This document shows, one piece after another, positions 1 through 21,843 of a DNA stretch of 54,285 bases. The notes under the pieces were generated by a model. That model made no database searches, was not told the origin of the DNA, and saw only the letters and a program-made list of their open reading frames with translations. The first letter of the stretch is position 1; each line of letters starts with the position of its first letter. This DNA is from Rhodanobacteraceae bacterium (GTDB taxonomy: Bacteria > Pseudomonadota > Gammaproteobacteria > Xanthomonadales > Rhodanobacteraceae): NCBI GenBank assembly GCA_016790075.1, contig JAEUPP010000060.1, positions 1-54,285 of the forward strand. The letters are read 5' to 3'. A program made the translations under genes and the position numbers.

Positions 1-843
1 ATCGGCGGTGTCCAGGGCCAGCAGTGCCTGCAGTTCAGCCGTCACCGCGGCACCGATGCCAGGTGCCGACTGGGCCTTGAGCGTGCTCGCCAGTGTCGCT
101 GCTGCGGCCATGACCCGCGCCAGATGATCACGCACGCGTTGCTGCTGGGTGCTGGCCAGGGCCCGCGCCGACGCCGGCAGGCGCAGCCCCTGCAGGATGG
201 TGTTGTCGGCCTCCAGTCGCGCCTGGGCCAGCAGCGCCTGGGCCTGCAGGGTGGTTACCGCTGACCAGAGGGCGTCGCGCGAGGCCGATGCCTTCGCAGG
301 GCCTTCACGCGGCGCGGCTTGCAGCTGGCCACGCAACGCATCATGCGCCCGGGCGTAGGCAGAAAAGGCATCCGTTGCGGCCTCCGGTGTGGTGACGGCC
401 GGGTGGGGTTCCGTCGCGCGGGCCTGCGCAATCGCCGCGCGGGTGTCCTCACCGCGCAGCAGGCGGTCGAGGATCGTGGGTGGGGGTGTGGCCGGTGTAA
501 TCGATGTGTCTTGTGTATTTTTATCTTTTGCGCTGATTCGGCCGCTCATTGCGGCGTTATCGCGCGTAGCGCCTGCAGCGCGAGCACGACGAGGCGGAAC
601 GGCCAGCGTGCGCACAGACGCCACCTGGTCCACCACCACCGGTGACGCCGACGCCGCCAGCGCCGCCCGTTCCGCAGCCAGGATCTCCGCCCGTGAACGG
701 GCAGGTGCTGCTGGCGAGGCCTCGCCGGCACCCGGCGTGGTCGCACTGGCCACCGCCCGTGCCGGCGCGGCCAGGCCGGCAGCACAGGTCAGGGCAAAAC
801 TCAGCGCGGCAATGGCCAACTGCAGCAAGGTGGGGTGGGTCAT
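1..843 (-). CDS. Ala-rich exported protein, 3' end outside the window
   Basis: An open frame of 281 codons runs from an ATG at 843-841 to the left edge with no stop, so the protein is truncated by the window. The N-terminus (MTHPTLLQLAIAALSFAL...AAPARA) is a clear signal peptide. The rest is Ala/Thr/Pro-rich, with a low-complexity segment (about residues 35-130) and then an Ala/Leu/Gln-rich part that looks helical (about 165-280). I see no catalytic motif. The start lies 11 bases after the stop of the giant gene on the same strand, so the two are almost certainly co-transcribed. The part outside the window may hold the functional domain. I do not recognise the family, and any link to the giant is inferred from position only. 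Confidence 0.8.
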   Translation of the reverse strand, partial: MTHPTLLQLAIAALSFALTCAAGLAAPARAVASATTPGAGEASPAAPARSRAEILAAERAALAASASPVVVDQVASVRTLAVPPRRARAAGATRDNAAMSGRISAKDKNTQDTSITPATPPPTILDRLLRGEDTRAAIAQARATEPHPAVTTPEAATDAFSAYARAHDALRGQLQAAPREGPAKASASRDALWSAVTTLQAQALLAQARLEADNTILQGLRLPASARALASTQQQRVRDHLARVMAAAATLASTLKAQSAPGIGAAVTAELQALLALDTAD

Positions 844-854
844 TCTTCGCGTTC

Positions 855-3800
855 TCACGGGCGGTCTCCGCTAGTCGGCTTCGCGGAGAGCGGCAATCGG
901 GCTGGCGCGAACAGCAGGCGCGGCAGCCAGCCCGCTGCTGTCGCCATGTGCTTGGGCGGCAGCGTTTCAAAGTCGTGGCAGAACAGCAGATCCTCCAGCC
1001 CGTCCTGGAAGCCGTTGCGGAACAGCAGGTCCAGCGGGCGCCCGGCCGCACAGCTGCGCAGTTGTACCGGCAGGCTCGCCAGCACGGTCCATTGGCTCTG
1101 GCCCTGGCTATTGCGCAGCGATGCACTGAGCTCGATGCGGTAGGCGCCCAGCGTCAGCGTGTCGGTCGCAAAGGTCGAGCGGCGGGCGACCTCGGCCCCT
1201 GGGTTCAGGCTGATGCTGTAGTCCTCCTGCGCCAGCGCCGCGCCGCCGCCATCGGCCTGCAACTGCAGGCGCACCGGCGCGGCGCTGAGCGCCAGCGTGC
1301 CGCTATTGCGCAAGGTGTAGTCGACCTGCAGCGGATCACCGCGGCGCAGGCTGATCGCCGCCGCCGTGAACTGCGCCGCCATTGTTTCGCCCGCCGGCGG
1401 GGTATAGGTCACGCTGATGCGGACTTCCTCGCCGATATTGCCGGCCCGGTCCGTCGCCCGCAGGCGCAGGCTATTGGCGCCCGGCTGCAGCGTGGCGGCG
1501 GCGGTGCGGAAATTACCGTTGGCATCGGCGCGCACGACGGTAGTCAGCCCAGGAGCCTCGACGGCGACATCGGCCTCGGGTTCGGTACTGCCGGCTACGT
1601 CCTGTGCCGGATCGGTCACCGTGCTGCCGGGGACGGGTTCGCTGACGACGACCGTCGGTGCATCGCGGTCCAGCGTGAACCGGATCTCGCGCACGGCCGT
1701 ATTGCCGGCGCTGTCATCGGCCTCGACCCGTAGCGTATAGCTGCCGCTGGCCGCTATTGCCGTGCCGGCGACATAGGGCTGGCCATTGAGGCTGAGTGTG
1801 CTCGTGCGCAGATGCGCGTCGCTGACCGTGATCTGCGGCGTCACTGCCTGATTCAGGAGCGCACCGTCAGCTACGCCGTCAATGGTGATTTGCGGCGCTG
1901 TGCTGTCGACGCTGAAGGTGATGACGGCGGACAAGGTCTCGTTGCCTGCGGCGTCGCGCGCGCGCAGGCGATAGTCATGCGCGCCATCGGCAAGCTTGAG
2001 CGCGGTGCTCTCGAACGTATCGGCCGCGGTACTGCTCAGCGCCGACCAGGGCCCTCCGTCGACGCGGGCGTCAACCGCAACAGGTGGGCTCAGCACATCG
2101 CTGGCCGTGGCCCGCAGGCGCAGTGGGGCGGCCAGCACTGCATCGGCCAGCGGTGCCAGTGCCTGCAGCAACGGGGCGCTGCGATCGACGACGAGAACGT
2201 TCTGCGTGTCCAGCGGCTGCCAGTTGCCGTCGCGCTGTATCTCCAGCGCGACGCGGGTATTGCCCAGCGGCCAGGCGGTGCTGGCGAAACTGGCCGTATC
2301 GCTGAAGATCTCGCCGCCGGCAAAGGGGCGGGCGTAGCTGCGCTGGGCGAGTTCGCTGCCATCAGCGGCGAGGATGCGCAGCCGCAGCGATTGCGTGGCC
2401 AGGGCGACCGTACCTGGATTGCGCAGCTGCAGGACCACCTCCAGCGCGCTGCCATGGGGCAGTTCCGCCTGGGCGGGTTGCACGGTGCCGATCAGAGGCT
2501 GGGCCGTTTGCGACTCGAACCGCACAGTGACCGCGCGCGTCGCACTGGTATTGCCGGCGGCATCGGTGGCGACCAGGTCAATGCGGTTGTCGCCTTCGAC
2601 CAGCGGCACCGCGGCAAAGTGTGCGCGGCCGTTGGCCTCGGCCAGGCGTTCGGCCTGGTAGGCGCCGGCCGTCAGTGTCACGCGCGCGCCGGCTTCGCTG
2701 TCGGCACTTACGTCGACGGCGCTCTGGTTCACGTTGCTGCCGTCCGCAGGACTGGTAATCGTGAGTCCGGGTGCGGTGCGGTCCAGTGTGAAATGCCGGC
2801 TGGCCAGGGTCAGGTTGCCGGCCGTGTCATAGGCCTGCACGGACAGGGTATAGGCACCGTCCGCGGTGACCGGCGTGCCCGAGACATAGGGCTGGCCGTT
2901 CAGCCGCAGCGTGGTCCGCGCCGTATCCAGGTAGCTGTCGCTGATCGTGACTGTCAGGGTGACGATCTGGTTGGTCAGGGCACCTTCGTCCACGCCGCTG
3001 ATGCTGACTTGCGGGGCGGTGGCATCGACCTCGAAGGCCGTGGTCTCGCCCAGGCTTTCATTGCCCCAGGCATCGCGGGCGCGCAGGGTGAGGCTGTGCG
3101 CGCCGTCGGCGAGACCACTCAGATGCAGACTCCAGCGGCCGTTGGCATCGAGTGCCAGCGGCTGCCACTGGCCACCGTCGATGCGCGCCTGCGCCTGGGC
3201 GATTTCGGAGTGCGCATCAGTGATGCGCGCGCTCAGCGTCACCAGGGCAGGCTGCCGCTGCGGCGGCGCGGGGGATTCCTGCGCAATGACCGGCGCCAGT
3301 TCATCGACGACGGAGAAACCCTGGCGTGCCAGATCGCGCCACAGGCCGGCCGTATCACCGGGCAGACGCGCGTCGAGTACGGCCACATAGGCCTCCAGCG
3401 CCAGCGGTGGCACCGCCAGGGCCAGACGCTGCTCACGGCTTGCACCGGCCTCAAGACGGATGCTTTCTTCGCGCTCGAAGACCGCACTCAGGCTGGCGGC
3501 GCGCAGCACCCGCAGGCGTAGCTGCAGGTCGGTCGGGGCGGTGCCAGCATTGTCGGCACGGTAGATCAGTTCGCCCGGCTGGCCGGCGACCAGGCGTACA
3601 CCGGGGGCGAACGCCAGCGCGCCGGTCAGGCGCGGACTGGCTCCGGGTTCGGCCAGCTGCAGGCTGGACTCGGTGCTGGCCTCATAGCCTGGCGCACTCA
3701 GGCGCAGGCGCAGGCTGTAGCTGCCGGCGGCGGCGCCCTGAGTTGTCCACGTATCCACTTTGCGCAATTGGTATCCGGGCGCCAGTGTGCCCAGCGCCTG

Positions 3801-6800
3801 GGTTGCGTTCCAGACTTCGCTGCCGGCGGCGGTATGCACCGAGACCCGCAGGCTGGCGCCGGCCAGCAGCGCGTTGCCGGCAGCAAACTGCAGCCGGCTT
3901 TCGATCTCGACCGGAAGGCCAAGGGTCTGCTGTGCCGGCGTGGCGCTCAGCGCCAGATCGATGCGCCGCAGCGCCTCGATCGTGAATGGGGCGCTGCGTT
4001 CGGCGGCCAGCGTGCCATCGCCACGCAGCAGGCGCGTGCGCAGGTGGTAGTCGCCGGCCAGCACGCCGCGGCTGTTCCAGTCCAGGTTGCGGCTGAACGT
4101 CTGGCCGGTGGCCAGGTCGGTGATCGTGCGTTCGCCCAGATCGGCGACACGCAGGCCGTCGTCGGCCAGGATTTCCGCCTGCAGGCGGCCGCTGAACAGC
4201 GCGCCCGGATTGCTGACGTGAATCGCGCCGGACAGTAAGGCATCCGGTGCAAGCAGGCTGGAGCTCAGGGCGACATCGAGCAGCGGTTCAGCGCTATCGC
4301 TGAGCGCAAGCTGCGCTTCGGCCGTGTTATTGCGTTCGTCGGCTTCGCCGATGGCATTGGCTGGATCGACCCGCAGGCTCAGGCGATAGACGCCGCTCTG
4401 AGTCAGTGTGCCGAGATTGAAGCTCAGTGCCTGGGCCTGGCCGGCGGCGAGCGCAAACGGCGCCGGCGCGGCCAGCGTGCGGCTGCTGCCGTCGGGCGCG
4501 CGCAGGCTGGCTTCCAGCACGATGCCGCTGGCAGCGGCGCTGCCGCGATTGCGCACACTGGCCAGCACGGTTACGGCCTGGCCAGGTACGGGCGCGGCGG
4601 GGACAAAGAACAGGTCTTCGCTGCTCACGCTCAGATCCGGCAGGGCTGCGCCGTCGAGTGTCAGCGTCAGGGGCGGCGACAGGCTGCTGCGGTTGCCACC
4701 CGCATCGGTGGCGGTGGCCGAGAACCCGTTGCTGCCGGCACGCAGCGCCACCGGTCCGGCGCAGAAGGCGCCGGGCGGCTGCACGGTGTAGAGCCGCGTG
4801 ACGCCGATATCGTTGATGCCGATGACGGCGATATGTCCACTCGCACTCCAGAGGAAGGTACTGGTGTTGTTGCCATTGACCGGTGCTGGTGCATCAAAGC
4901 GCAGCGTGCCGTCCAGCGCGCTGCGGCCTTCGATGCGGTCATGGTGGAGCACGCTGATTTCGCTGCGGTCGGGCGACCAGGCAAAGGCCTGGGCTGAGTC
5001 CGGCAGGGTGAGCCAGGGATCCGCCGCACGTGTCACCAGGTCATAGCGCCACAGGGTCCGTTCGCTATTGCCGCTGCGCGCGACCACGAGGCGACCATCC
5101 GGCGACCAGCGTGGCCAGACAAAGGTGTCGGCGGCGATGCTGCTGTGCACGCGTCCTGCGTCGAGATCGACGATCAGGAAACGGCCGTCGCTGGTCGCCA
5201 GCGCGGCATAACGCCCGTCGTCGCGCAGGTGCATGAGTTCGTCGGGCGCCAACGGGTAGTCGGTCAGGCCGCTGATGGCACGGGCTGCGCTGCCGTCGCG
5301 GCGTATCCACCACAGCGACTCGTTGGTGCTGCCGCCATGGCGGCCGTAGAACAGCAGGCGGGTTTCGTCGGCCGAGACGGCGTAGTTGCGGATGGCCTGG
5401 GCTGTGAACGGCAGTGCCTGAGGTGCGGCATTCTGCACTTTTGCAAACAGCTGCTCGCCGCTGAGGTAGTACAGCGTTAGCCCCCGCGCCGACCACTGTG
5501 GCAGGCGTGCCTGTGCCGCAACGGTTTCGACCTGTTCGGTACGCAGGTCGACGATACGCAGGCCGTTGTCGGCATCGGCGAGGTGCCAGCCGTCCGCCGC
5601 CAGCCGCAGCGGCGAATAGGTCTGGCTGCCTGCGGTGGGGTAGTCGCGTGACTGCAGGCTTGCGGCGGCAGTTGCCGTCACGATCGCGCTGCCGTCGCGC
5701 CAGATCTCGATCTGGCTGCCCGGTTCGGCGCGGCCGCAGATCAGGCTGCGGTCGGTGTGGATCGCAAGCGGCCCGCCGTCGGCGGTGGGATAGGTCAGCA
5801 CCGGTGCCGGTGGCGGCAAGGTGTCGCGCGGCACGCCGCTGGCAGCGGCGCTGGTGCCGCTGCGATTGCCCGCCGCGTCGACGGCTTCGACGGTGTAGAA
5901 GTAGCGCGTGCCGTTGTTCAGTGGTGCATCGCTGTAGCTGGCCGTGGCGATGCTCGCGATCTCGCTGTAACTGCCGTCGGCGGCGAGTGCACGGCGCAGC
6001 ACGTAGCGCAGGGGCGTGCTGCCTTCGCCGGCACGCCAGCTCAGCTGCAGCAGGCCACCCTGCGGTGCGGCGCTTACGCTGAGATCACGCGGAATCCCAG
6101 GTCCGCTGCCGGCGACGACCAGGGTGATGCGGTTGGATGCGCTGCTGGCATTGCCGAACGCATCCAGCGCGATGACTTCATAGGCATAGCTGCCCAGGGC
6201 CAGATTCGCATCGACATGGCGGCGCTCCGCGCTCGCGGCGAGTTCAGCCAGTACGGCGCCATTGCGTAACAGCCGGTAGCGCGCGACATCGGCTGCCGTA
6301 CTCGCCGTCCAGCTGAGGGTTGCATTGTTTCCGTCCAGCGTGCCGCTGAGCACGACCGGATCCGGTGGCGTGGTATCACCGATGCCGACTTCAGCCGGGG
6401 CCGACCAGGGGCTTTGCAGCGCGGCGTTGTTGACGGCCGCGACGCGGTAGCGGTGCTGGCCGTCGAGCACGGTCTGCTGCAGCGTGGTCGTGGTGAGCAG
6501 GTGCCAGGCGCGTACGCGGACCTCGGCCAGGGTCAGGCGGGCATAGCCGCCGTTGCCGGTCGGCGAGCGCACGGCAATACGCAGCCTGTCGGTGCGGTAC
6601 GCCTCCGGCAGCGCCACGCTATGCGTGGCCGCGGCGGCGCTGCGCGACTGCAGCAGACGAACCCAGCCCTCGTGGCCGGCATGGGCGTAAATATCGAGAT
6701 TGCCGCTGGCGTAGCCCGCATCGCGCCAGTCGAACTCCAGCGCACTGACCACGGCGGCGCTGCCGAGATCAATTTCCAGCAGCGGATCGCTGCCGGCTTC

Positions 6801-9800: not shown

Positions 9801-12800
9801 GAGCACACGCAGGTCAACCCGCGCCGGCACCAGCAGTTGCAGGCGCAGCTGGGTCTGGTCGAGACGGCCGTCGGCATTGGGTGAGAACAGTTCCGGTACG
9901 GCGCTGGCGCCGCCGAGCACGGCCAGTGGCTGTGGAGCGGCGAAGGCCTGCGCGAACTCGGCGCTGTTGCCGAAGTCATCGGAGGCGCGCAGCAGATAAC
10001 GGCCGGCCTGGGCCACCGTGCCACGGCTCCAGCGCCCGAGTACGGCCGGCTGTGGCACCGGCTCGTCGTCTTCGGCCAGCAACTGGCTGCTGCCGCTGTG
10101 TTCGACGCTGAGTTGCCAGTACGGCTGCGCTGCAGGAAAACTGGAGAAATGCGCATCGTCCACGCTGCCGCTGATCGCGACGACTGCGTCCTGCGGCACC
10201 GCGCCGGCCGCTGGCGCGGTGATGGCGAGCACCGGCGGGGTGGAGTCGACGTCGACCACGTAATAGCGCGTTGCGGTCCAGCCGCAAGCATCGCTGGCCT
10301 GTACGCGAATGACGTAGTAACCGTCGGCGGCGGGGTTGCCGCTGACCTGTCCGTTCCAGCTCACGGTGAACGCGCCACTGATCTGCTGGCCCTGGGCCAG
10401 CGTGCTGAGTTCGTTGCCGACCTCGTGGCGCGTAGCGCCGTTATCCAGCACCGTGATCAGCGCATGCAGGCTGGCGCGATAGTCCAGCGGTTCGCGCGCG
10501 ATCAGCGGAATGGTCGCGTTGCGGAAGCGCGGCGCGCCGTTGCGCGAAAGCCCGAGTACCGGCTTGTGCGATTCGGCCCGTGGCTCACCCTCCGGCCGCG
10601 GCGTCAGCAGGAACAGCGTGCCGGTCTGCGGTTCCGGCGCGCCGCCCAGACCCAGTTCGGCCACACTGTCCAGGTCGAAGGTCGTGGTGCTGCAGACCAC
10701 CGCGCCGGAGGCGTTGGCGACCTCGAGCTCGGCCGTGACACGGCCGTTGAGATCAGCAACGGCCGGACCGTAACCGGCCAGTTCGCGCGGCAGCAGATCA
10801 GGCGCGGCCGGGTATCGGGTCTTGCACTCCTCGCTGGAAAGCAGCCCTGAGCTGCCGGGGCATACCGTGCCGATATCACTCGCGTTGGATTTCAGTGCGA
10901 ACTGGTAGCTCACCGTCGAATCGCTGCGCATCACGCTGCCCAGGCGCAGCGCCGGGTAGCCGCTGCGCGCGTCGAGGGTGGCGCAATAACGGCTGCCACT
11001 GCTGGGCCAGTCGAGTTCCGCTTGCGGCGGGTCGTGGTCGATCTCGACGCTGCGGCTGCCGCTGAAGCGCAGCGCGGGGCCGTTGTCGGCGACTGCGTTG
11101 GCCAGGTAGCGGCCTTCGGCGAAGCCTGCTGTCGACAGCACCACAGTGCGCAGCCACGGTGGATCGGACGGCGTCCTGTCGTTGCGTGTCGGTGTCTCGT
11201 TCAGCAGCGGATGTACCCCGTTCGCGCCGACCAGCGCGAGCTCGTAATGCTGCATCACGAACTCGGCTCCGGCGACGAAGCGCCAGCGCTGCGTAGGCAC
11301 ACCGGCACAGCGCTCGCCGAGTACCGGACTGGCGCCCAGCTGCAGTTGCTTGCTCCCGTCGGACGTGTCTCCGGGTCCGCAGCGGTTTTCGGTGATTTCG
11401 CTTTCCGCCACGCGGCCGGCACCGGCGAGTACGGCCTGGATCGTGGCCGCTGACTGCCTCGGCAAGCGGAAATAGGCATGCCTCGCGTTGTAGGCCGTCG
11501 CCGGTTGCATGCGGTAGTTGCCGCTGGCGATCGCATCCGGCCGGGCCCCGAGGCGCAACTGCACCGCTGCGGCAATGCCGTCGTAGAACACCGGTACCAC
11601 GACCTGCAGGTCATCGGAATAACTTGTCAGCAGCTCCCTCACCTCGGGCGGCGCCACGTCGGCCGTGTTCACACCTGGACAGAACACGATAGGCGTGGCG
11701 AGCCCGCTAGTGCGCACGCGCAGCTGATCACCGTAGAGGCGGCTGCCGTCGCTGCGTATGCCGACTGCGCGCAGGCGCCGGTCGGCGCCCTGGGGCAGGT
11801 TGCGCCAGGGCAGGGACAGGCGGATGCCGCGGTCGCGGTGAGCAAAAACGAAGGGCGCCTGGGTGCCGGGCAGGGTGGCGAACACGCTCCATTCACCGGG
11901 ACGGCTCGTATCGGCGATTTCGATATCGATGGAGGCCAAGCCGGCGCTGCCGTCCTGCAGCCAGAGCTCGACCTGGTCGGGATCATCGATCACGAGTTCG
12001 ACCGCGGTGGGGAAATCTGCCGGGTAACTGACCGCGCCCACGCTTGGCGCCTTGTAGACATGCCGCGCGCTGCAGTTGCCGCCGGAGCAGTTCGCAAACA
12101 GCAACTGTTCGACCACACCGCCGAGTTCGTGCAGGGTGCGGTTGCCGGCGCGGTCGTAGGCCGCAGCGCGCAGCGCCTTGCCGGCGAGGCCGCGGTAACC
12201 CGTTTGCAGCAGGTTGCCCTTGGCATCGTGGGGCGCTTCCTGCCAGTCGCCGCCGGCCAGCGGGCGGGTCTCGTAGCGCAAATAGTCGAAATGCCGATCC
12301 GTGGCGGCACCGACCACGTTGAGCTGGTCCGTATAGTCCGGCGTGGGCGCAACGCCGTCGTCGAACGGCAGGTTGGGCTGTTCCAGCCAGCCGGTGAATA
12401 CGGGCGGCGTGGTATCGAGGCTGATTTTCAGCGTTTGCCCGGCAACGTCGGCCACATAGTCACCATCGGGCAGGGCCTGGCCGCCATCATTGCGGCCGTC
12501 CCAGATGAATTGCTGCGGCCCCGCGCTGAGCAGCGCATCCTGCTCGCGTACGACCTGGCCCAGCGCATTCCTGATGCGCAGCGCAATCTGCGCGTTCGTC
12601 GTCAGGCGGTAGCGCAGCGTGGCGACATCCTTGACCCCGTCGCCGTTGGGCGAGAAATAGCGCGAGTCCAGGCCCAGCTCGAACACCGGCGAACCGAACG
12701 AGGACAGGGCGGAAGCGATACGTGTGGTCGTATTGCCGGCCTTGTCCACGACGCGCAGCCGCACCAGGTACTGGCCCGGCGACGGCGGTATCCAGCTCAG

Positions 12801-15800
12801 GAATTCGTCACCGAGCACCGGCTCGTCCTGCGGCGGCGTGATCGCCTGCCATTGCGTCGGTGCGGCGGGCAGGGCCCAGTCCAAAGTGTAATAAGCAAAA
12901 TTGATATCGGCGGCGACGCCGGACAGGCGCACGGCCCGCCCGCTGGGTTCGGCCCAGAGCTGCGCTGACAGGTTGACCAGCGCCGTAATCGCCCGTGGCT
13001 GCGCGGTACCGTTGCCGGCAATCAGGTTGGCATCGTCGCCGCTGATTGCCGGCGCCAGGTTCTCAATCGCTTCACGATAACGCCAGGGGCGGCTGGACCA
13101 GCGGCCGGCGTAGCCGTAGCGGCTGTCGCTGGTGAACGCGCCGGTATCGACCAGGCGCAGCCGCGGCTGCAGGTCGGCCGGCAGCTGAGTGGTCTGCTGT
13201 ACGCCGGCGATGCGTGTCTGGCTGCCGTCATCGACATCGATCGCAAACGCTTCCAGCGTAGCGGGTTCGTGACCGAAGCAGCGGCCTGCTTCGCAAGCGA
13301 CCGGGCCTATATGTTCGCTGGCCAGCAGCACCACGGCCTGGCGTGTAGCCGGATCAAACCACTGTCTGCGGCGGTCGCTGCTGAGCCAGCCGCCGCTGGG
13401 ATGCAGCGTGTCGGCGCGGCGATGGCCGCTGTCGAACCGCTCCGGATCGGGGCCGAGGTCAAGGCTGGAGTCGGTAGGCGGCAATTGCGCGCTGGCGCGC
13501 ACAGCGCCGTCGCGGTTGACGATCTGCACCTGCCGCGCCAGTGCATCGATGACCAGCAGGCTGTCGTCGGCGCTGATCCATTGCGCGTCCAGGCTGGGCA
13601 GGTAGCCGGGTTCGCTCAGCGCCGGGAAGGTGTGTGGCACGGGTGTGTATTGCTTCAGCAACGTTTCCGTACCGGTCTCGGTGCGGAACAGGTGCAGGGT
13701 TTCGCTGTTGTTGGCGAAACGCCGGATCACGGCGCGGGTGCCGTCGGGATTGAGGCGGATGCTGAGCTGCTGCCCTTGCTCTGCGGTGGGCAGGCTGACG
13801 ATGCTGCGCTGCGTATCCTGCGGCACATAGTAGGACGGTGGTGTTTCCTCGCTGATCGGCGAGCGCCAGACGTAGTAGCCATGCGCGAATGCGCGCAGCT
13901 CGGCGCTGTCGTCGGGCATGGGCCGCAGCGGTGTCCTGGTCCGCGTCTGCAGGTTGTAGATATAGAGCTGTGGGAAGGCGCCGCCAATCACGCGGTTCGC
14001 ATCCAGGAAACGTGGCTGCTGGCGCCGGAACCCTTGCTCGACGGATATCGCCGCGGCGTCGAGCACGATCACCTGGTCGGTCTGATCCGTTGCAGCGACG
14101 GCGAGTGCACGCGTGTAGTCCCGCTCGATATAGAACGCGATCCAGCGGCCATCCGGCGAAAACTGCTGGGCGTCCAGCGTATCGAGCCGGCCCTGCGCCG
14201 TACCAAGGAAGTTGTGCAGCCAGCGCGCCGACAGGACGGCCGTCAGCTCTGGCGCCACCGTATTCGTGCGGTAGAGGCCCTCCAGCGTTTCCAGCGGATT
14301 GTTCGAGCGCGAGCGCGCGAACAGGGTGTCGCGGGTCGCCGCCGTAGCGGGCGGCTGGAACCAATGACGCTCGGGCGGCAAGGGCGCATCGGCCAGCAGC
14401 GGCGTATCGATCGCGGCAATCAGGCTGCTGCGATCCGTATCGACGCTGAGGCTGAGCGTTGCCGTGACCTGCCCCGCCGTAACCCGCTCGGCGATGTAAA
14501 CCCCGTCCGCTACGACGCGCCCGCGCTGGTCGCGGCCATCCCAGACCAACTGGCCGCTGTTCGCGGAAGCGGCGAGTACCTCGTCATAACGGCGCACGAT
14601 GCGGCCGGCGCCATTGCGGATCAGCACATCCACACGGCCGGTGCCGTCGCGCGCAAGGAACAGCGCGGTCGCATCGCGCACCCCGTCGCCATTGGGCGAG
14701 AAATAGCGTTCGCTGGCGTAAAAGCCCGCGTCCTGCAGCAGCAGCGGCAGGATGGCGAGGTTGTTGCCTTCCTGGTTCTCGCGCACCTGTGCGGTGGCAT
14801 CAGCGACCAGGCTGAGCTGACGCGCGCCCGGCTGCAGGCCGAAGGCCCAGCTCCAGCTCAGTGTGGTTTCCGCACCAGCGGCGAGTTCAGCGATGAGCTG
14901 GTCATTGCCGACTGCGACCCCGTTTTCGGCGTTGCCCTCGAACAGGCGCACAACCACGTTGCGCGCGGCCTGGGCACCGAGATTGCGCACCAGAGCCTGT
15001 ACCTGCTGCGCGGTGCCGGCGGCCGGCTGGCTGGGCACCAGGGTCATGCCGGCGCTGGACACGGCGATATCGGCAAACGGCAGTACATTGAGTGTATGCA
15101 GTGCAAGATTGTTGCTTTCATCCGATTCAGCAATCTGCTGATCGGCATCCGCGGCAACATAGACCGGCGTATCACCGGCCAGACCCAGTTCGGCCACATT
15201 CATGACGGCACTGGTTTCGCCGCCGGCGGCGATGCCGGGAATCACCACCTGGGCGATACGCGTGCCGCCGCTGCGTGGGTCGCTGGCGTACAGGGCCAGC
15301 GTGGACCCGGGGCTTGCCTCGGCGCCGAGGTTACGCAGGCGCAGGCTCAACTGCAGCGGCTGGCCCTGCAGGGCGGGCAGCGGGGTGAACTGCAGGCTAT
15401 CGGAGACGATGGCGAGATCACTGCCGCTGCCGGCCACAATCGTGAACGGCAGTTGCGCCGTGTTGTTGTTTTCGTCGAGTTCGGCGATCTCGTTGGCTGC
15501 ATCCAGAACAACATTCAAGCTGGCTGCGCCGGTCTGGCGTGCACGCCAGTACAGGCGGCGTTCCAGGGTCTGGCCCGGATCCAGCGTGACGCGGGTGTCG
15601 AGCAGGGTTTCCTCGGCTGCACCCTGCTGCAGCACGACCCGCAGCGCCGCGTTGTTGGCACTCAGGGTGCCGCGATTGCGTGCACGCACGCGCAGGCTGA
15701 CATCGCGGCCCTGGGTGGCGGCGCCGTCGAGCAGGGCGAGATCACTGGGCAGCACCTCAAGATCGAGGCTGGGTCCGAAGGGCAATACCAGCTGTGCTTC

Positions 15801-18347
15801 GTTGTTGTTCTCGCGCGCCTCGGCGACCTGGTTGTCCGGGTCGGCGACCAGACGCAGGCGCAAGGCCGCTGGCGTGGTCGCGGCAAATTCCAGCTGCAGC
15901 GGTACGGCGGTGCCGGCCGGCAGGTCCAGGCTGGCTGTTGCAAGCAGGCGCGGTGGATTGGCTTCGTCGTAGAGCGCCAGACGTGCGGCGCTGACGGCTG
16001 TGCCGCCGGCATTGCGCACCTGGCCGCTTAACTGGATCGTTGACGGCAGTTGGGCCAGCGCCGGCGGCGTCAGCGTGAAGCGCGCCGCATCGAGGGCGAT
16101 ATCGGCCTGGGCCGGCGCCGTGGCCACGTTAAGCGGAATCGCAATGCGGTTATCACTTTCGTTTTGCTCGGCAATGGCGTCGCCGGCGTCGAGCAGCAGC
16201 CACAGGGTGCGCGGGCCGGAATGTCCAGAACTGTCCCAGCTCTGCTGCAGCAAGGCCGTGGCGCCGGCGCTCAGCGCGGGGACGGGCTGATCCGCCCCGA
16301 TCGCTATGCCGCCCTGAGCCGGATCGCCGTCGTACCAGCGGGCGAGGCTGGCAGGCGTAGGCGCTGCACCGGTGTTGGCGACGCGCACCTGCAGGGTCAG
16401 CATGTCACCGACGATGGCATCGGCCGGCAGCACGCTGGGTGCCGCGGCGGCGGCCAGATTGGGCTTGTTGTCATAGAGCCGCGCCAGCGCTGCGCTGGCG
16501 GTGAGGTAGACGCTGCCCTGCCAGTCGCCGGCCGTCTGCTGGGCCGCGATGACGTAGCCGCGTGCGCTGTCGGCGGCGAGTGCTGGCAGCGGCAGGCGGC
16601 CGACCAGACTGTACAGCTCGATGGTGTCAGCCAGTGTGCTGTCGCCGGGCAGTGTGCCGCTGTCGCCAAAGCTGCCGTCGGCGCGGCGGCGGCTGGCCAG
16701 CCACTGGACCGCGGCGTCACGGATGGTCAGGTGGGCACTTTGCGTTGAGGTGCCGAATACACGCGTGGCCCGCAGGGTTGGCAGCAGGCGACCGCGGCCC
16801 GAGGCGGCGAGGGCAAAGCTGCCGTCGCTGTTCTGCCGGCTGCCCAGTTGGGTCAGCGCCCGACGCACGGCGTCACCGTCAGCATCACGCCGGGCCAGTG
16901 CATCAGCAACATGTGCCGTATCCAGCGTGCTGTCTTCGAGTCCGGCGGCCAGGCTCCAGCCGCCGGCGCTGCTCTGCGCGCCGAGCAGCGCGGTACTTGC
17001 GGTTTGCGCTGAAGCGATCAGTTGCCAGCCCTGCTGGTCGCGATTGGCCGGTGTCTGCGCCGCGAGCCAGTCGCGGGCGCGGCCAAGTCCGGGCCAGCTG
17101 GGATCGACCTGCGCCAGCAGTTGCACCGCGGCTGCAGTATCACGTACAGCGGTTGCAGCACGGTCCTGCCAGTGGCCGTCGGCCTGCTGGCGCTGCTTGA
17201 TCCAGTCGACCGCCGCAGCAATGCCGGGCGGTGCGGCGGCCGTGCCGCTGCCGCTGAGCACGGACGGCAGTTGCGCCGACTCCGCCAGGGGTTCGTTATA
17301 TAGCCGCAGAGAGGCACGGCCATCCGTGGCCTGATTGAAAAACTGCTGCAGGCGTATACGCACGCCTTCGAGCGCAGCCAGGGTAGCCGGTGGCACCGTC
17401 TCGCCGGGACGCTTGATCAGGATCAGCGCGGCGCGAAAGTCCTTGGGCGCCTGCGCCGCAGCGGGAATGCGCGGACCTTCCGCGGCGATGATCTGGTCTA
17501 TGGCTACCGTTTCCCCCGTGCCGCCGCTGACCGCGCCCAACCGCGGCAGGTCGAGCGCATTGCCATCACCACCGGTGATGAGGTTCATGGCCGGCACTTC
17601 GGATGCGGCCGCGAAGCCAGCCAGATAGAGGTCAAGGGGGCTGAAGCGCTGCCGCACGGCGACGCTCTCGTAGCGGCCGTCGCTGCGGCGACTCCAGTCC
17701 GCGCCGTACATCAGCGAGGCGTCGGTATCGAGGAAGTAGCTCCAGTGCGAACCCTCGCGGCCGATCAGGGCGCGGCTGGTCTCACCGGCCGGGGTGCGGT
17801 AGGACACGCGTGCACCCCAGCGGTGCATGATTTCGTGGGCCAGCGTGGTCTGCACGTCGCGGTAGCGCGTTTCGCCGGGTACGAAGGCATAGCGGCTGGT
17901 CGCGGCCATGTCGATATAGCCCTGCAGGCGCGCGGCGCTGCCATAGTGCTGGCCAAAATCGAGCAGGGGCGTGCCGATGCCGCGCACGTCGTTGCGCAGT
18001 GCGGTATAGAACGCGAGTGCAGTGCCGGTTTCAAATTCAAACGTCGTGAAGGTGACGAGGAAGTCGTACTGGTCCGCATGCGTCGCGTAGAAACGCTGTG
18101 CGACGGCCATGCGGGGAGCATCGAGGCTGCGGCTGTAGTCGCCGTCGAGTTCGATGACCGTCAGGTTGCCGAGATCGACGCTGCCGAGCACCGTTGCGTT
18201 GCCGGCCTTGGTGCGGGCGCTTGCGATATCGGGTATGTGTACGCAGTCGTCGAGCAGCAGGGCCGGCGCGGTCGCGCGCGTGGCGGACGGCAGCACGAGC
18301 GCTGCCAAGGCGGCGGCGAGCAGTGCCAGGGGGCGCGCAAATCGCAT
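855..18347 (-). CDS. Giant (5,830 aa) secreted multidomain protein: zincin-like, toroid, CARDB, beta-propeller, Ig/FN3, F5/8C
   Basis: One uninterrupted frame with a signal peptide (MRFARPLALL...SATRATA). Domains in order, residues approximate: zincin-like metalloprotease module with HEIMH at 171-175, followed by GREGSHW, a DASLMYG stretch and FSPLDLYLAG (about 30-370); an alpha/alpha-toroid-like repeat with DGHWQ, AGGWSL, DGSFA and DGSFGDSG turns (about 375-625); five CARDB repeats ending in ENNN/ESNN-type turns (about 626-1205); an FSPNGDG/FlgD-like Ig domain (1214), with a second near 1896 and an FSPNADG variant near 2819; a TolB/WD40-like propeller (about 1320-1770); a Cys-containing region (about 2080-2690); many Ig and FN3 repeats; F5/8C (about 3805-3952); a second propeller (about 4226-4524); then CARDB/Ig super-repeats to the end. 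There is no C-terminal membrane anchor. The ATG overlaps the upstream stop (TGATG). Probably a cell-surface or secreted adhesin or protease; substrate and secretion route are unknown. Confidence 0.93.
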   Translation of the reverse strand: MRFARPLALLAAALAALVLPSATRATAPALLLDDCVHIPDIASARTKAGNATVLGSVDLGNLTVIELDGDYSRSLDAPRMAVAQRFYATHADQYDFLVTFTTFEFETGTALAFYTALRNDVRGIGTPLLDFGQHYGSAARLQGYIDMAATSRYAFVPGETRYRDVQTTLAHEIMHRWGARVSYRTPAGETSRALIGREGSHWSYFLDTDASLMYGADWSRRSDGRYESVAVRQRFSPLDLYLAGFAAASEVPAMNLITGGDGNALDLPRLGAVSGGTGETVAIDQIIAAEGPRIPAAAQAPKDFRAALILIKRPGETVPPATLAALEGVRIRLQQFFNQATDGRASLRLYNEPLAESAQLPSVLSGSGTAAAPPGIAAAVDWIKQRQQADGHWQDRAATAVRDTAAAVQLLAQVDPSWPGLGRARDWLAAQTPANRDQQGWQLIASAQTASTALLGAQSSAGGWSLAAGLEDSTLDTAHVADALARRDADGDAVRRALTQLGSRQNSDGSFALAASGRGRLLPTLRATRVFGTSTQSAHLTIRDAAVQWLASRRRADGSFGDSGTLPGDSTLADTIELYSLVGRLPLPALAADSARGYVIAAQQTAGDWQGSVYLTASAALARLYDNKPNLAAAAAPSVLPADAIVGDMLTLQVRVANTGAAPTPASLARWYDGDPAQGGIAIGADQPVPALSAGATALLQQSWDSSGHSGPRTLWLLLDAGDAIAEQNESDNRIAIPLNVATAPAQADIALDAARFTLTPPALAQLPSTIQLSGQVRNAGGTAVSAARLALYDEANPPRLLATASLDLPAGTAVPLQLEFAATTPAALRLRLVADPDNQVAEARENNNEAQLVLPFGPSLDLEVLPSDLALLDGAATQGRDVSLRVRARNRGTLSANNAALRVVLQQGAAEETLLDTRVTLDPGQTLERRLYWRARQTGAASLNVVLDAANEIAELDENNNTAQLPFTIVAGSGSDLAIVSDSLQFTPLPALQGQPLQLSLRLRNLGAEASPGSTLALYASDPRSGGTRIAQVVIPGIAAGGETSAVMNVAELGLAGDTPVYVAADADQQIAESDESNNLALHTLNVLPFADIAVSSAGMTLVPSQPAAGTAQQVQALVRNLGAQAARNVVVRLFEGNAENGVAVGNDQLIAELAAGAETTLSWSWAFGLQPGARQLSLVADATAQVRENQEGNNLAILPLLLQDAGFYASERYFSPNGDGVRDATALFLARDGTGRVDVLIRNGAGRIVRRYDEVLAASANSGQLVWDGRDQRGRVVADGVYIAERVTAGQVTATLSLSVDTDRSSLIAAIDTPLLADAPLPPERHWFQPPATAATRDTLFARSRSNNPLETLEGLYRTNTVAPELTAVLSARWLHNFLGTAQGRLDTLDAQQFSPDGRWIAFYIERDYTRALAVAATDQTDQVIVLDAAAISVEQGFRRQQPRFLDANRVIGGAFPQLYIYNLQTRTRTPLRPMPDDSAELRAFAHGYYVWRSPISEETPPSYYVPQDTQRSIVSLPTAEQGQQLSIRLNPDGTRAVIRRFANNSETLHLFRTETGTETLLKQYTPVPHTFPALSEPGYLPSLDAQWISADDSLLVIDALARQVQIVNRDGAVRASAQLPPTDSSLDLGPDPERFDSGHRRADTLHPSGGWLSSDRRRQWFDPATRQAVVLLASEHIGPVACEAGRCFGHEPATLEAFAIDVDDGSQTRIAGVQQTTQLPADLQPRLRLVDTGAFTSDSRYGYAGRWSSRPWRYREAIENLAPAISGDDANLIAGNGTAQPRAITALVNLSAQLWAEPSGRAVRLSGVAADINFAYYTLDWALPAAPTQWQAITPPQDEPVLGDEFLSWIPPSPGQYLVRLRVVDKAGNTTTRIASALSSFGSPVFELGLDSRYFSPNGDGVKDVATLRYRLTTNAQIALRIRNALGQVVREQDALLSAGPQQFIWDGRNDGGQALPDGDYVADVAGQTLKISLDTTPPVFTGWLEQPNLPFDDGVAPTPDYTDQLNVVGAATDRHFDYLRYETRPLAGGDWQEAPHDAKGNLLQTGYRGLAGKALRAAAYDRAGNRTLHELGGVVEQLLFANCSGGNCSARHVYKAPSVGAVSYPADFPTAVELVIDDPDQVELWLQDGSAGLASIDIEIADTSRPGEWSVFATLPGTQAPFVFAHRDRGIRLSLPWRNLPQGADRRLRAVGIRSDGSRLYGDQLRVRTSGLATPIVFCPGVNTADVAPPEVRELLTSYSDDLQVVVPVFYDGIAAAVQLRLGARPDAIASGNYRMQPATAYNARHAYFRLPRQSAATIQAVLAGAGRVAESEITENRCGPGDTSDGSKQLQLGASPVLGERCAGVPTQRWRFVAGAEFVMQHYELALVGANGVHPLLNETPTRNDRTPSDPPWLRTVVLSTAGFAEGRYLANAVADNGPALRFSGSRSVEIDHDPPQAELDWPSSGSRYCATLDARSGYPALRLGSVMRSDSTVSYQFALKSNASDIGTVCPGSSGLLSSEECKTRYPAAPDLLPRELAGYGPAVADLNGRVTAELEVANASGAVVCSTTTFDLDSVAELGLGGAPEPQTGTLFLLTPRPEGEPRAESHKPVLGLSRNGAPRFRNATIPLIAREPLDYRASLHALITVLDNGATRHEVGNELSTLAQGQQISGAFTVSWNGQVSGNPAADGYYVIRVQASDACGWTATRYYVVDVDSTPPVLAITAPAAGAVPQDAVVAISGSVDDAHFSSFPAAQPYWQLSVEHSGSSQLLAEDDEPVPQPAVLGRWSRGTVAQAGRYLLRASDDFGNSAEFAQAFAAPQPLAVLGGASAVPELFSPNADGRLDQTQLRLQLLVPARVDLRVLDAGGAVVAELAQNVAMNAGTARLDWNGGGLADGRYRVDIVARDAAAPAIAESGTLALTLDTAAPVISVLTPAGGHASSRDSVTFRVEDTHLDRYDAQLVAAGSGAIVARLGGGNDGVQTLTALDALATGDYQLRVTAQDGAGNRREVTQSFTLDKTSPEAALTAPAAASVLPRAAAPQVLLGSASDTHLRDYRVELVPAGSESGAVIASGNSPVTAAALGQWVVTQADGDYRLRLRVRDLAGNEASAEQTIAIDGTPPAIVLSSPANGAAIAGRLLLQGSVRDAHLRDYQIAVATPSAALADQWTPLYRGLAGVDAGTLADLDLPLPDGDYVLRVRASDVTGAQTDARLDLRLDRSAPPAPLQLRLSLQGSDAVLDWSAPDAADLAGYAVYRNGARLNPALVTAPRHVDSALQDGLWRYEVSAIDRAGNESPRSNRVEATLDRTPPQVDIHAPLAASRVHGVVPVLGTAWSSDDFDSYSLSARRSDGSGASVVLAQGGLPQRDALLAHWDSLAFAQDSAVTLRLLARDRSGNEAAREIEVIVDNLAPAAPQGLNAVLQAADGVVSWNPNSETDLLGYLLYRNGRLVNGPAQLPQDLRGYALPDASYRDAALPDGTHRYVVFAIDQAGNISAASDPAELGPVDNGPPHLRIDAPENGISFETTLDVRASSNEGDIASVQFAYRAAGASSWTTLGTAQTEAPYRIRWTPGELPLGEYDIRALALDNSGLSDPQPPQVRVRYADLTAPAGPGALSASADGATVNLQWTASNDASVVAYRVEADNGSGWQQVGDDAAGNTRSHPGRADGRIQYRVRALDAAGNLSDAASDEAQVFSLSLEQPFTPTAQATVTLQGRSAVPGQLSLRIGEGAEENRGATSGDGRFTLPDLALASGESAFTLRVTTADGDRSRAATRWVRRASAPAAPTGLQASAAGYEVSLNWNANSEPDLLGYRVEHNGGSVRADDTLTGLTPGSTTCCGAEGVADGNLDTWWDITTTFEPASAEAGSDPLLEIDLGSAAVVSALEFDWRDAGYASGNLDIYAHAGHEGWVRLLQSRSAAAATHSVALPEAYRTDRLRIAVRSPTGNGGYARLTLAEVRVRAWHLLTTTTLQQTVLDGQHRYRVAAVNNAALQSPWSAPAEVGIGDTTPPDPVVLSGTLDGNNATLSWTASTAADVARYRLLRNGAVLAELAASAERRHVDANLALGSYAYEVIALDAFGNASSASNRITLVVAGSGPGIPRDLSVSAAPQGGLLQLSWRAGEGSTPLRYVLRRALAADGSYSEIASIATASYSDAPLNNGTRYFYTVEAVDAAGNRSGTSAAASGVPRDTLPPPAPVLTYPTADGGPLAIHTDRSLICGRAEPGSQIEIWRDGSAIVTATAAASLQSRDYPTAGSQTYSPLRLAADGWHLADADNGLRIVDLRTEQVETVAAQARLPQWSARGLTLYYLSGEQLFAKVQNAAPQALPFTAQAIRNYAVSADETRLLFYGRHGGSTNESLWWIRRDGSAARAISGLTDYPLAPDELMHLRDDGRYAALATSDGRFLIVDLDAGRVHSSIAADTFVWPRWSPDGRLVVARSGNSERTLWRYDLVTRAADPWLTLPDSAQAFAWSPDRSEISVLHHDRIEGRSALDGTLRFDAPAPVNGNNTSTFLWSASGHIAVIGINDIGVTRLYTVQPPGAFCAGPVALRAGSNGFSATATDAGGNRSSLSPPLTLTLDGAALPDLSVSSEDLFFVPAAPVPGQAVTVLASVRNRGSAAASGIVLEASLRAPDGSSRTLAAPAPFALAAGQAQALSFNLGTLTQSGVYRLSLRVDPANAIGEADERNNTAEAQLALSDSAEPLLDVALSSSLLAPDALLSGAIHVSNPGALFSGRLQAEILADDGLRVADLGERTITDLATGQTFSRNLDWNSRGVLAGDYHLRTRLLRGDGTLAAERSAPFTIEALRRIDLALSATPAQQTLGLPVEIESRLQFAAGNALLAGASLRVSVHTAAGSEVWNATQALGTLAPGYQLRKVDTWTTQGAAAGSYSLRLRLSAPGYEASTESSLQLAEPGASPRLTGALAFAPGVRLVAGQPGELIYRADNAGTAPTDLQLRLRVLRAASLSAVFEREESIRLEAGASREQRLALAVPPLALEAYVAVLDARLPGDTAGLWRDLARQGFSVVDELAPVIAQESPAPPQRQPALVTLSARITDAHSEIAQAQARIDGGQWQPLALDANGRWSLHLSGLADGAHSLTLRARDAWGNESLGETTAFEVDATAPQVSISGVDEGALTNQIVTLTVTISDSYLDTARTTLRLNGQPYVSGTPVTADGAYTLSVQAYDTAGNLTLASRHFTLDRTAPGLTITSPADGSNVNQSAVDVSADSEAGARVTLTAGAYQAERLAEANGRAHFAAVPLVEGDNRIDLVATDAAGNTSATRAVTVRFESQTAQPLIGTVQPAQAELPHGSALEVVLQLRNPGTVALATQSLRLRILAADGSELAQRSYARPFAGGEIFSDTASFASTAWPLGNTRVALEIQRDGNWQPLDTQNVLVVDRSAPLLQALAPLADAVLAAPLRLRATASDVLSPPVAVDARVDGGPWSALSSTAADTFESTALKLADGAHDYRLRARDAAGNETLSAVITFSVDSTAPQITIDGVADGALLNQAVTPQITVSDAHLRTSTLSLNGQPYVAGTAIAASGSYTLRVEADDSAGNTAVREIRFTLDRDAPTVVVSEPVPGSTVTDPAQDVAGSTEPEADVAVEAPGLTTVVRADANGNFRTAAATLQPGANSLRLRATDRAGNIGEEVRISVTYTPPAGETMAAQFTAAAISLRRGDPLQVDYTLRNSGTLALSAAPVRLQLQADGGGAALAQEDYSISLNPGAEVARRSTFATDTLTLGAYRIELSASLRNSQGQSQWTVLASLPVQLRSCAAGRPLDLLFRNGFQDGLEDLLFCHDFETLPPKHMATAAGWLPRLLFAPARLPLSAKPTSGDRP
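1060..3637 (-). repeat. Four-domain super-repeat in the giant protein (CARDB-like + three Ig), two full units plus a terminal half unit
   Basis: Within the giant gene the pattern CARDB-like/Ig/Ig/Ig occurs at about 3637-2515 and again at about 2500-1395. A third CARDB-like domain (about 1383-1060) closes the protein. Matching landmarks in the two units are DGGQW/DGGPW, then SISGVDEGALTNQ/TIDGVADGALLNQ, then LRLNGQPYVSGT/LSLNGQPYVAGT, and the LRNPGT/LRNSGT turn of the CARDB-like domain. The second Ig of each unit also shares nucleotide stretches (around 1760-1800 and 2880-2920), so the unit arose by segmental duplication of about 370 codons. Boundaries are by eye. Confidence 0.8.
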
Positions 18348-18718
18348 CAGCGCCGTCCCCTCGCCGGATTGACGAGGACTTGAGTTTCCGACAAGGGCAG
18401 CGGGTCGGTTGCGTGCAGCAGATGCTGATCGAGCGCGCTGAAATCAATGCTTGCGCCGCGGGTGATGCTGATCGAGAACGCGTCGCTGCGGTCGGGCAGC
18501 AGGCGCGTGAAAGTTGCTTGCGTCGGACGGATTTCGGCGACACGCCAACTGCTTTGCGGCACTGTTTGGCCGCGGCCCAGGCGCAGCAAGCTGCCGTCGT
18601 TGGCGGACAATACGATGGCGCCTGAATCGGCGGATAACGCAGCAACCGTATAAGGCGCTGCGGTCGCTGTGTTTGTTGCGAGAAAAAGAAACAAAAAGAC
18701 TAATTTATTAATAGTCAC
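18347..18718 (-). CDS. Small exported protein (123 aa), coupled to the giant gene
   Basis: The start is a GTG at 18718-18716, chosen because GGAGG lies 8 bases upstream and a good signal peptide follows at once (TINKLVFLFLFLATNTATA, then APYTV). Upstream in-frame ATGs would bury that signal. The mature part of about 100 residues contains SGAIVLSANDGSLLRLGRGQ and SSWRVAEIRPTQATF. This resembles the small beta-rich periplasmic domains of GspC or PilP ('variable-R-L-x-x-G-x-W-R-V'), but the likeness is weak and by eye. The stop overlaps the start of the giant gene by one base (TGATG), which points to translational coupling. It could be a chaperone, anchor or secretion partner of the giant. The function is unknown. 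Confidence 0.82.
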   Translation of the reverse strand: MTINKLVFLFLFLATNTATAAPYTVAALSADSGAIVLSANDGSLLRLGRGQTVPQSSWRVAEIRPTQATFTRLLPDRSDAFSISITRGASIDFSALDQHLLHATDPLPLSETQVLVNPARGRR

Positions 18719-19080
18719 AATGCCGGCCTCCGCCGGTCGGAGCGCGGATGCGATTGCTGCAGGCGCAAGCCCGACAACTGCCGTGCGGCAACACATGCGC
18801 GATCTTCATTGACAGGTACGCACAGCCGCGGCGTTCTCAGGGTGAAGCGACCGCGAATCGTGCGTACGTGGAGCCGGCCGTATCGGTAAGGCACACGCCG
18901 ATCGTCCGGCTCAGGATTCCCCGCGGCTAGGATAGCGGTTGTCCCGCCGTGAGCAAGCAATTAGTCAGCCAGTGTCTGCCCGAGCCCCGAGGCAGGGCCG
19001 TACGCTGCAGCTGGGGTCTGGCCAGAAGCCAGGAACCTGGCAACTGCGGTCAGCCCCGTTTCCTGCGCTATTCTTGCCGG
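18719..19080. other. Divergent intergenic region with a spaced inverted repeat
   Basis: This 362-base stretch separates the minus-strand exoprotein operon from the plus-strand DUF6164 gene, so it should hold both promoters. It contains an 8-base inverted repeat, GTACGCAC (18816-18823) and GTGCGTAC (18860-18867), spaced by 36 bases, and a short TGCCG-tg-CGGCA palindrome near 18778-18789. No convincing -35/-10 pair was found. Short open frames here lack coding character. Confidence 0.4.
18727..18731 (-). promoter_or_regulatory. Ribosome binding site deciding the GTG start of the small exported gene
   Basis: GGAGG on the minus strand lies 8 bases before the GTG at 18718. The first codons after it are markedly A/T-rich, which favours initiation. 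No comparable site precedes the upstream ATG candidates. Confidence 0.7.
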
Positions 19081-19446
19081 ATGCCCACGCTGCTCCTGAA
19101 CCTGCGCCAGACACCCGATGACGAAGCGGATGAAGTCCGCGAGCTGTTGCAGGTGAATGCCATCGATTTTTTTGAAACACCTGCCAGCCGCTTCGGCATC
19201 TCCGCCGGGGCCATCTGGCTTGCCGATGAAACCCGCGCCGACGAGGCACTGAACCTGCTCGCCCGCTATCAGGCCCAGCGTCGCGAAACAGCACGCGCGG
19301 CATACGCGCAGGCGCGGGCCGAGGGCAGGGCTATGGGTTTCTGGCGGCAATTGCGGCGTGAGCCGGTGCGCGTCGTGGCGGCCTTGATCGTGATCGCCGT
19401 GCTGATCGCGCTAACGGCGTTGCCGTATTTCCTTCTGCGCGACTAG
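19081..19446 (+). CDS. DUF6164 family protein (121 aa)
   Basis: The start ATG at 19081 gives MPTLLLNLRQTPDDEADEVREL, which matches the beginning of DUF6164 proteins as I remember them. The longer upstream frame (from 18949) adds a Cys/Arg-rich stretch that is not typical. The soluble N-terminal half (about residues 1-75) contains FFETPASRFGISAGAIWLADE. One C-terminal membrane helix lies at about 96-117 (VRVVAALIVIAVLIALTALPYFLL), ending in LRD. It is probably an inner-membrane protein with its N-terminal domain in the cytoplasm. The family has no established role that I know of. It stands alone, divergent from the giant operon and convergent with the HU-like gene. Confidence 0.85.
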   Translation: MPTLLLNLRQTPDDEADEVRELLQVNAIDFFETPASRFGISAGAIWLADETRADEALNLLARYQAQRRETARAAYAQARAEGRAMGFWRQLRREPVRVVAALIVIAVLIALTALPYFLLRD

Positions 19447-19523
19447 CTCGCGTTTCTCACACCCGTTCATAGCGAGGCCGCCGGGACGCCGTCCTGTTCG
19501 GATTTTCCTTGGCTGCAGAAACG

Positions 19524-19550
19524 ACAACCGGGCGACCAGCGCCCGGTTGT
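19524..19550 (-). terminator. Hairpin between the convergent DUF6164 and HU-like genes
   Basis: An 11-base perfect stem ACAACCGGGCG/CGCCCGGTTGT with a 5-base loop lies 34 bases after the HU-like stop. On the minus strand it is followed by CGTTTC, a weak U tract. On the plus strand there is none. It probably ends the HU-like transcript. Confidence 0.55.
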
Positions 19551-19583
19551 GTAGCTCCTGTGCGGCTGACCGCGGGACGGCGA

Positions 19584-19958: not shown

Positions 19959-20250
19959 GGGCTTTGGTTCTCGGTGACAGAGAGTTTCGCCCGCGCGATT
20001 GTCGGCGGGCGGCCAGTGTCGGCGGCGACACTTTACTGCATCCGCAGCGCAAGATTTAAGCGGTTTTTAGCCGATTGTTGTGCAGGAGCACGCAACGTAT
20101 GCGGCAATAACCGCGCATGCTGCACTGCAATCGCGTAGTGGCCGCGTTTTCGAGTATCTTTCGCGGTTGCCTTGCGCGCCGCAAATGCCTCGCACCGTGC
20201 AGAGCGGCAGCAGCTGCGGTGGTTGTTTCCGGCTGTTGCCGTGAGTCGAC
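19959..20250 (-). promoter_or_regulatory. Leader and promoter region of the HU-like gene
   Basis: This stretch has no gene and must carry the HU-like promoter. A 7-base hairpin, AGTGTCG/CGACACT with a 4-base loop (20015-20032), sits 57 bases before the start and would be in the leader RNA. Several TTGC-type hexamers and an A/T-rich patch (20050-20072) lie upstream, but I cannot assign a promoter confidently. Confidence 0.35.
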
Positions 20251-21652: not shown

Positions 21653-21843
21653 AGCGGTAAGCCAGGGGCAAAGGGTGGCCGAGCATAGCTCAGTGCGGCT
21701 GCAACGGGCTTGTGGTGCCGGGCTGTACGGTTCGCTGGCATGGCAGCGCTGTTGCAGCCTCAACGCGCGGCGCTGTACCGCGCGTGGATTGACATACGAC
21801 GTCGTTCGTAGAAACTGCCCGCTCTCGCCCGCTGGAGCCGTTT

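Follow-up and report, generated by a model that had tools for sequence, protein, structure and literature searches.

We analysed a 54,285-nucleotide stretch of DNA from a member of the Rhodanobacteraceae (the window), which is the entire contig JAEUPP010000060.1 of a 5.6-Mb, 83-contig assembly, so that its left edge is a contig edge. At that edge, on the reverse strand, a gene for a small exported protein is followed by one for a 5,830-residue giant exoprotein and by the beginning of a third gene, which relatives extend as a second giant of the transglutaminase-Rhs type:

18347..18718, minus strand: small exported protein, 123 residues from GTG at 18718; an alternative 149-residue frame from ATG 18796 is open.
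855..18347, minus strand: giant exoprotein, 5,830 residues, ATG start, taken from the open reading frame (ORF) listing and collinear along its entire length with 10 relatives.
1..858, minus strand: 5′ end of a transglutaminase-Rhs gene, first 281-286 residues, incomplete, as judged from a frame open at the contig end and from relatives.

The first-pass annotation had described this locus as a three-gene exported module joined by a TGATG overlap and an 11-base gap. Both junctions were borne out: the small ORF overlaps the giant ORF at TGATG, and 11 bases lie between the giant's stop and the first ATG of the third frame, although an alternative GTG start at 858 would overlap the giant's stop instead. 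The small protein and the giant are likewise real, but the third gene, taken at first for a complete Ala-rich exported protein, is the contig-cut start of an Rhs giant, because its frame is open at base 1 and relatives extend it as long Rhs proteins. No sigma-70-like site was found at 18300-20000, where six terminator-like sites were present against 2.6 expected, and an Rfam search gave no match.

When the 286-residue window end was searched in 61 genomes, it matched itself and three congeners, each within a frame of 1,385-3,622 residues. An Rhs-type frame stands behind the giant in G001, G003, G004, G006, G007 (two loci), G044, G045, G047, G050, G056 and G059, several of these frames ending at contig or fetch limits. 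The six genes complete to a stop (G003, G004, G007a, G044, G045 and G050) encode 3,510-3,640 residues, with the count starting ∼60 bases ahead of the giant's stop; the G003 frame of 4,979 residues includes open frame overlapping the giant. By Pfam, the Rhs proteins of G003 and G004 contain a transglutaminase-like domain, DUF6531 and many RHS repeats over cut-off, with Big_1 just below; in two relatives, PF01841 scored E 5e-8, the PF05593 repeats E 2e-60 and 1e-109, and the Rhs-associated core TIGR03696 (NCBIfam) E 3e-16 and 4e-18. The transglutaminase-like domain carries the motif GN[DH][VA]DQ in 13 of 13 proteins, and an alignment to 3isr (match E 0.009) places an Asp opposite the Cys of GVCRD, on which grounds the domain is presumably inactive. 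The window copy, whose N-terminus is by eye hydrophobic and then Ala-rich, stops before this domain, and its Rhs part is therefore predicted from relatives. Searches of the same genome's other contigs with two relatives' proteins matched the Rhs-repeat part only; because the transglutaminase part was not found there, the rest of the gene probably lies in an assembly gap. A plasmid search returned a single distant match, at 28% across half of the query, to a 748-residue Granulicella protein. The contig-end truncation and the long Rhs frames of relatives rule out a small exported helper, and we conclude that the third gene is the start of a second giant, probably the toxin that the unit delivers.

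The first giant combines a putative peptidase domain with a long series of binding-type domains:

17250..18272, minus strand: N-terminal zincin-like domain, residues 26-366, containing the giant's most conserved bin.
17823..17837, minus strand: HEIMH motif, residues 171-175, with H, E and H invariant in 17 of 17 aligned relatives.
17745-17747, minus strand: candidate third ligand His, residue 201, 26 residues past HEIMH, invariant in 17 of 17.
16413..17255, minus strand: squalene-cyclase/TED-like alpha/alpha toroid, residues 365-645, from Pfam and PDB profile matches.
14658..16607, minus strand: tandem CARDB region of five stretches, residues 581-1230, from Pfam.
12948..14345, minus strand: first beta-propeller region, WD40/TolB-like, residues 1335-1800, from PDB profile matches; among the less conserved parts.
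6540..6875, minus strand: discoidin (F5/8 type C) domain, residues 3825-3936, from Pfam.
4578..5630, minus strand: second propeller-like region, approximately residues 4240-4590, from Pfam PD40/DPPIV_N matches below cut-off.

Compared with 10 relatives in 150-residue bins, the giant was collinear, with identity of 0.20-0.52 and occupancy of 0.84-1.00; giant frames in relatives run to ∼5.4-7.0 thousand residues. Most of the domains named in the first-pass annotation were recovered. CARDB was matched at E 3e-64 in five stretches inside one 650-residue piece, with an additional CARDB at about residues 4570-4677, and the discoidin domain (31.3 bits against a cut-off of 28.2), the toroid (28.7 bits against 26.1; profile match to PDB chains at E 1e-28) and many bacterial immunoglobulin-like (Ig) domains were also found, and the chain includes FN3 domains. 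The first propeller region matched PkwA at 2.6e-8 and TolB at 4.5e-6, whereas the second rests on weaker matches, namely one WD40-type chain at 2.6e-4 and the Pfam matches below cut-off.

The zincin-like domain shares with known zinc metallopeptidases an HExxH and a later His, which would form a zinc site. These residues support the zincin call made from HEIMH, but the Met is not invariant, one aligned row reading HEVLH. The structure model of the domain is confident; it gave no clear fold match in the PDB, with Z too low for any family, and the window copy matched no Pfam family. The domain is apparently new. At six Nitrospirota loci (L093, L098, L099, L101, L111 and L125), the zincin-like domain sits C-terminally in a different large frame, and the module is thus also used outside this operon. 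At the other end of the chain, the giants of G050 and G056 carry by eye a C-terminal hydrophobic helix and basic tail resembling a CTERM sorting signal, and Tahibacter giants carry C-terminal motifs like IF..GF...FC.DF; anchoring may differ between lineages. A MYXO-CTERM match below cut-off in one relative's giant was the sole NCBIfam result for a C-terminal tag. The IF..GF motif was rejected as a sorting tag of general use because a scan for the pattern in the window gave no match, and a type IX secretion signal was set aside, the CHU_C/T9SS matches in the giant being weak and internal.

To follow the linkage of these genes, we surveyed 299 genomes of the order with an alignment of the zincin domain (A2) and one of the Rhs N-terminal half (A3). 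Rhs matches were counted above 450 bits, which dropped 51 of the 72 genomes with any match, and G064 was dropped from the zincin list for its partial match. The zincin giant was found in 21 genomes, a strong Rhs match in 21 and both in 19 (Fisher p 9e-26, uncorrected for kinship). In all 17 cases in which the two lie on one contig, they are adjacent on the same strand in the order giant then Rhs, 16.6-19.1 kb apart; G040 and G060 have them on separate contigs. The giant without a strong Rhs match occurs in the window's own genome, where the contig ends, and in G215 (85% complete). As for the Rhs-only genomes, in G066 the Rhs gene is immediately preceded by a giant's tail, which over 1,834 residues shares 57% identity with the G050 giant, and in G077 the Rhs match lies on a 3-kb contig. 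Weaker transglutaminase-Rhs relatives are present in genomes lacking the giant, which is thus associated with one Rhs subclass.

Beyond this sample, 39 genomes reached through named loci added 10 with the giant-Rhs arrangement (this count excludes five named genomes that the order survey already contained), carriers among them being Dokdonella, Lampropedia, Thermoanaerobaculia, Acidobacteriota and Myxococcales. The arrangement in G318 and G331 is read from short Rhs matches at a contig end, and the zincin frame of G335 has only 1,592 residues. Among the exceptions, G321, G324 and G342 have a giant-length frame with the Rhs match on another contig, the two genes are divergent in G332, and in G317 a short zincin protein has the Rhs gene upstream; many other named-locus genomes have only a shorter zincin-domain protein or no Rhs match. 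Together with the small gene, which precedes 14 of 16 giants in the first survey, these counts bear out the expectation that the genes stay together. Tahibacter soli (L082 and L084; G007:C18:145001-225000) carries on a single contig two copies of the full three-gene set separated by ∼53 kb (the Rhs gene of the second was read only in part), and a gspD of a type II secretion system (T2SS) lies ∼52 kb from one copy.

The small protein consists of an N-terminal hydrophobic segment, which may act either as a signal peptide or as an anchor, followed by a single beta domain of the HR type, predicted as six strands in the structure model and resembling the fold of GspC, GspB and PilP. Nine of its 10 best VIA-align rows were GspC, GspB, PilP, PulC or pilus/secretin complex entries (the PilP chain assignment in 3jc8 and 4av2 is inferred), and HHalign matched it to the HR part of GspC with P 2e-5 and probability 77, against at most 0.3 for two controls. 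HR models were scanned against 11,568 ORF segments (1.33 Mb). With the iterated model, all 18 segments at E ≤ 0.5 outside the upstream windows were gspC; the un-iterated model matched 11 segments, nine of them gspC and the other two at E 0.23 and 0.39. Leaving out each of 12 small proteins in turn gave E 4e-6 to 2e-33. The small protein thus appears to share with GspC both fold and profile-level sequence similarity, but unlike GspC, GspB or PilP it is stand-alone, has a signal-peptide-like start and lacks a PDZ domain: none was among its Pfam matches at E ≤ 1, and its C-terminal end lies only ∼20-35 residues past the HR core, with neither PDZ nor coiled-coil following. Its gene also sits with the presumed cargo, outside a T2SS or pilus operon, and lacks the adjacency to gspD seen for gspC.

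In GspC, GspB and PilP, this fold touches the N0 gate at the entrance of a secretin. Binding to the N0 domain is described for the GspB HR (PMC9239104; this and the other PMC articles named here are cited from part of their text), and GspC-type proteins hold the T2SS together via the HR (PMC12369372). One reading of the small protein is accordingly that a GspC-type HR adaptor, encoded with its cargo, attaches to the T2SS secretin and gives a two-chain giant toxin an exit route of its own, a proposal that we put forward tentatively and that is somewhat more apt to fail than to hold. The earlier suggestion that the flanking proteins aid export, anchoring or control would then point in the right direction for the small protein, as far as its modelled fold goes, but not for the other flank, which is a second giant.

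The window's genome contains two gspD genes over cut-off, both on contigs other than the window, and each adjoins its own gspC/T2SSC-like gene, one of these below the Pfam cut-off. Within the family, a GspD match below 1e-160 was present in four of four sampled carriers, which come from two genera with three in one genus, as opposed to nine of 72 non-carriers (hand count, uncorrected for kinship); the best match in the remaining family genomes was ∼1e-138 to 1e-150. High-scoring GspD is common outside the family. A second T2SS as strict partner was therefore rejected, the association being suggestive within the family and not specific.

Two observations from the upstream test weigh against an adaptor for the giants. 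This test covered the surveyed giants apart from G002 and G073 (not testable) and 57 named loci, minus L078, L101, L110 and L129, which have no testable upstream sequence. An HR gene was not found before the zincin giants of one family, and HR genes also stand directly before short zincin proteins (L089, L094 and L112). The latter placement, to which L119 can be added (HR before a 1,592-residue zincin frame that may be a broken giant, with an Rhs match 20 kb downstream), would suit an HR protein that partners the zincin domain in the periplasm, restraining the peptidase or aiding folding until the giant leaves the cell, and so would the TGATG overlap shared by the HR and zincin giant genes in the window and the strong conservation of the zincin domain. 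However, this explanation leaves the specific likeness to gspC across 1.33 Mb without a reason and also has to accommodate the family in which no HR gene was found; we regard it as unlikely, if worth keeping in view. An HR protein resembling PilP might instead dock to or alter the type IV pilus secretin PilQ, with the giants serving pilus-linked surface behaviour, but the best structural match is GspC rather than PilP, the sequence matches are gspC frames (whether the scanned DNA held pilP frames was unchecked) and no pilus gene was among 10 neighbouring window proteins scanned, and we accord this idea very little probability. In one relative without a detected HR gene, a dense short-repeat run, partly masked, lies directly upstream of the giant (L114:8856-9560).

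The C-terminal tips of the Rhs proteins differ sharply from the shell that precedes them. Among the six relatives read to a stop, identity over aligned columns is 37-65% for the 400 residues leading to the DPxG motif, compared with 19-29% for the last 180 residues in a forced global alignment. Eleven of 16 complete tips were scanned (L158, with no readable Rhs frame, L165, which runs off its contig, and L166, which looks split, were left out of the set); three had a Pfam match over cut-off, namely RES (G004), a Tle1-like phospholipase and Stv, one matched Tox-URI2 below cut-off and seven had no match. By mechanical ORF calls, a small same-strand ORF follows all 16 Rhs genes complete to a stop, at -8 to +18 bases in six of six and -29 to +9 in the other 10 of 10; the one such ORF scanned had no immunity-family match.

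The scarcity of tip matches, the naming of Stv as a putative adhesin and the giant's wealth of adhesion-type domains could also fit a surface adhesion or nutrient-capture complex, whose variable tips would not be toxins. However, variable tips that follow a conserved Rhs core, the matches to RES and Tle1-like domains and the small ORF at -29 to +18 bases behind every complete gene are marks of polymorphic toxins (PMC3482391), and a purely adhesive or nutritive role is in our view distinctly improbable. We prefer to read the operon as a polymorphic-toxin unit of two giants with its own secretin-docking adaptor, to which we give close to an even chance. Both giants would cross the inner membrane by Sec, and the HR protein would sit at the entrance of the T2SS secretin, recruiting or gating them. 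The first giant would act as a surface or extracellular carrier, its discoidin, Ig and CARDB arms serving for binding and its zincin domain processing or releasing the Rhs partner; the Rhs shell would then deliver the toxin of its tip into a target cell, and the small downstream ORF would confer immunity.

The locus had been thought not to belong to a described system, which is correct only in part. Signal peptide-inactive transglutaminase-RHS polymorphic toxins have already been described (Zhang et al. 2012, PMC3482391), and the relatives' third gene shares with them a Cys-less transglutaminase near the N-terminus, Ig-like domains, RHS repeats and a variable tip. It differs in length (∼3,510-3,640 residues, as opposed to a peak of 1,400-1,600 for RHS toxins; PMC3482391) and in being preceded by a zincin giant and an HR protein. 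In open-licence full texts we found no description of these two as partners of an Rhs toxin, and PMC3482391, its last part excepted, does not use the word CARDB. The Tc toxins (TcA-TcB-TcC) are likewise a multi-protein unit with an Rhs shell and a variable tip (PMC6425310), but their partner proteins differ from the zincin giant in domain content; a Tc assignment was rejected, Pfam having matched neither SpvB nor TcdB in the Rhs proteins of G004 and G003 at the thresholds used. Bacterial teneurin-like YD proteins also combine a YD shell, Ig/CARDB-type arms and a variable C-terminus, although on one chain, whereas here arms and shell are on two giant chains (PMC6425310). Bdellovibrio Bd0108/Bd0109 similarly pairs a small exported protein with an exported Rhs-like protein, but Bd0109 has ∼550 residues, unlike the relatives' Rhs giants (PMC3818213). 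The kind of Rhs toxin is thus known; if the adaptor works, the export route would be new.

Elsewhere in the window, an amidohydrolase gene (20324-21763, minus strand) adjoins one for a Kelch-type propeller protein (21844-23634, plus strand), and further neighbours are RlmL-, TilS-, DnaE-, penicillin amidase- and TPR-sulfotransferase-like genes. Two ORFs on opposite strands overlap almost completely: 26004-28229 (plus strand, 741 residues), which had no Pfam match at 1e-5, and 26043-28148 (minus strand, 701 residues).

The arrangement suggests an undescribed way of exporting very large weapons. T2SS substrate recognition is poorly understood (PMC12369372). In some substrates, the Ig/FN3 domains hold information for secretion that GspC homologues read and that requires the PDZ of GspC (PMC12369372). 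For one class of substrates, an operon encoding an HR protein beside its presumed cargo points to an answer that is simple and can be tested, namely that the cargo supplies its own docking piece. If true, T2SS substrate recognition would here be specified by the cargo, and the unit would be a two-component Rhs delivery device outside type VI secretion, Tc and contact-dependent inhibition systems. It would also account for how signal-peptide Rhs toxins without a partner from any of these three leave the Gram-negative cell. Polymorphic toxin biology would gain a conserved carrier and an apparently new zincin-like domain, found in Xanthomonadales-type bacteria, Acidobacteriota, Myxococcales and others.
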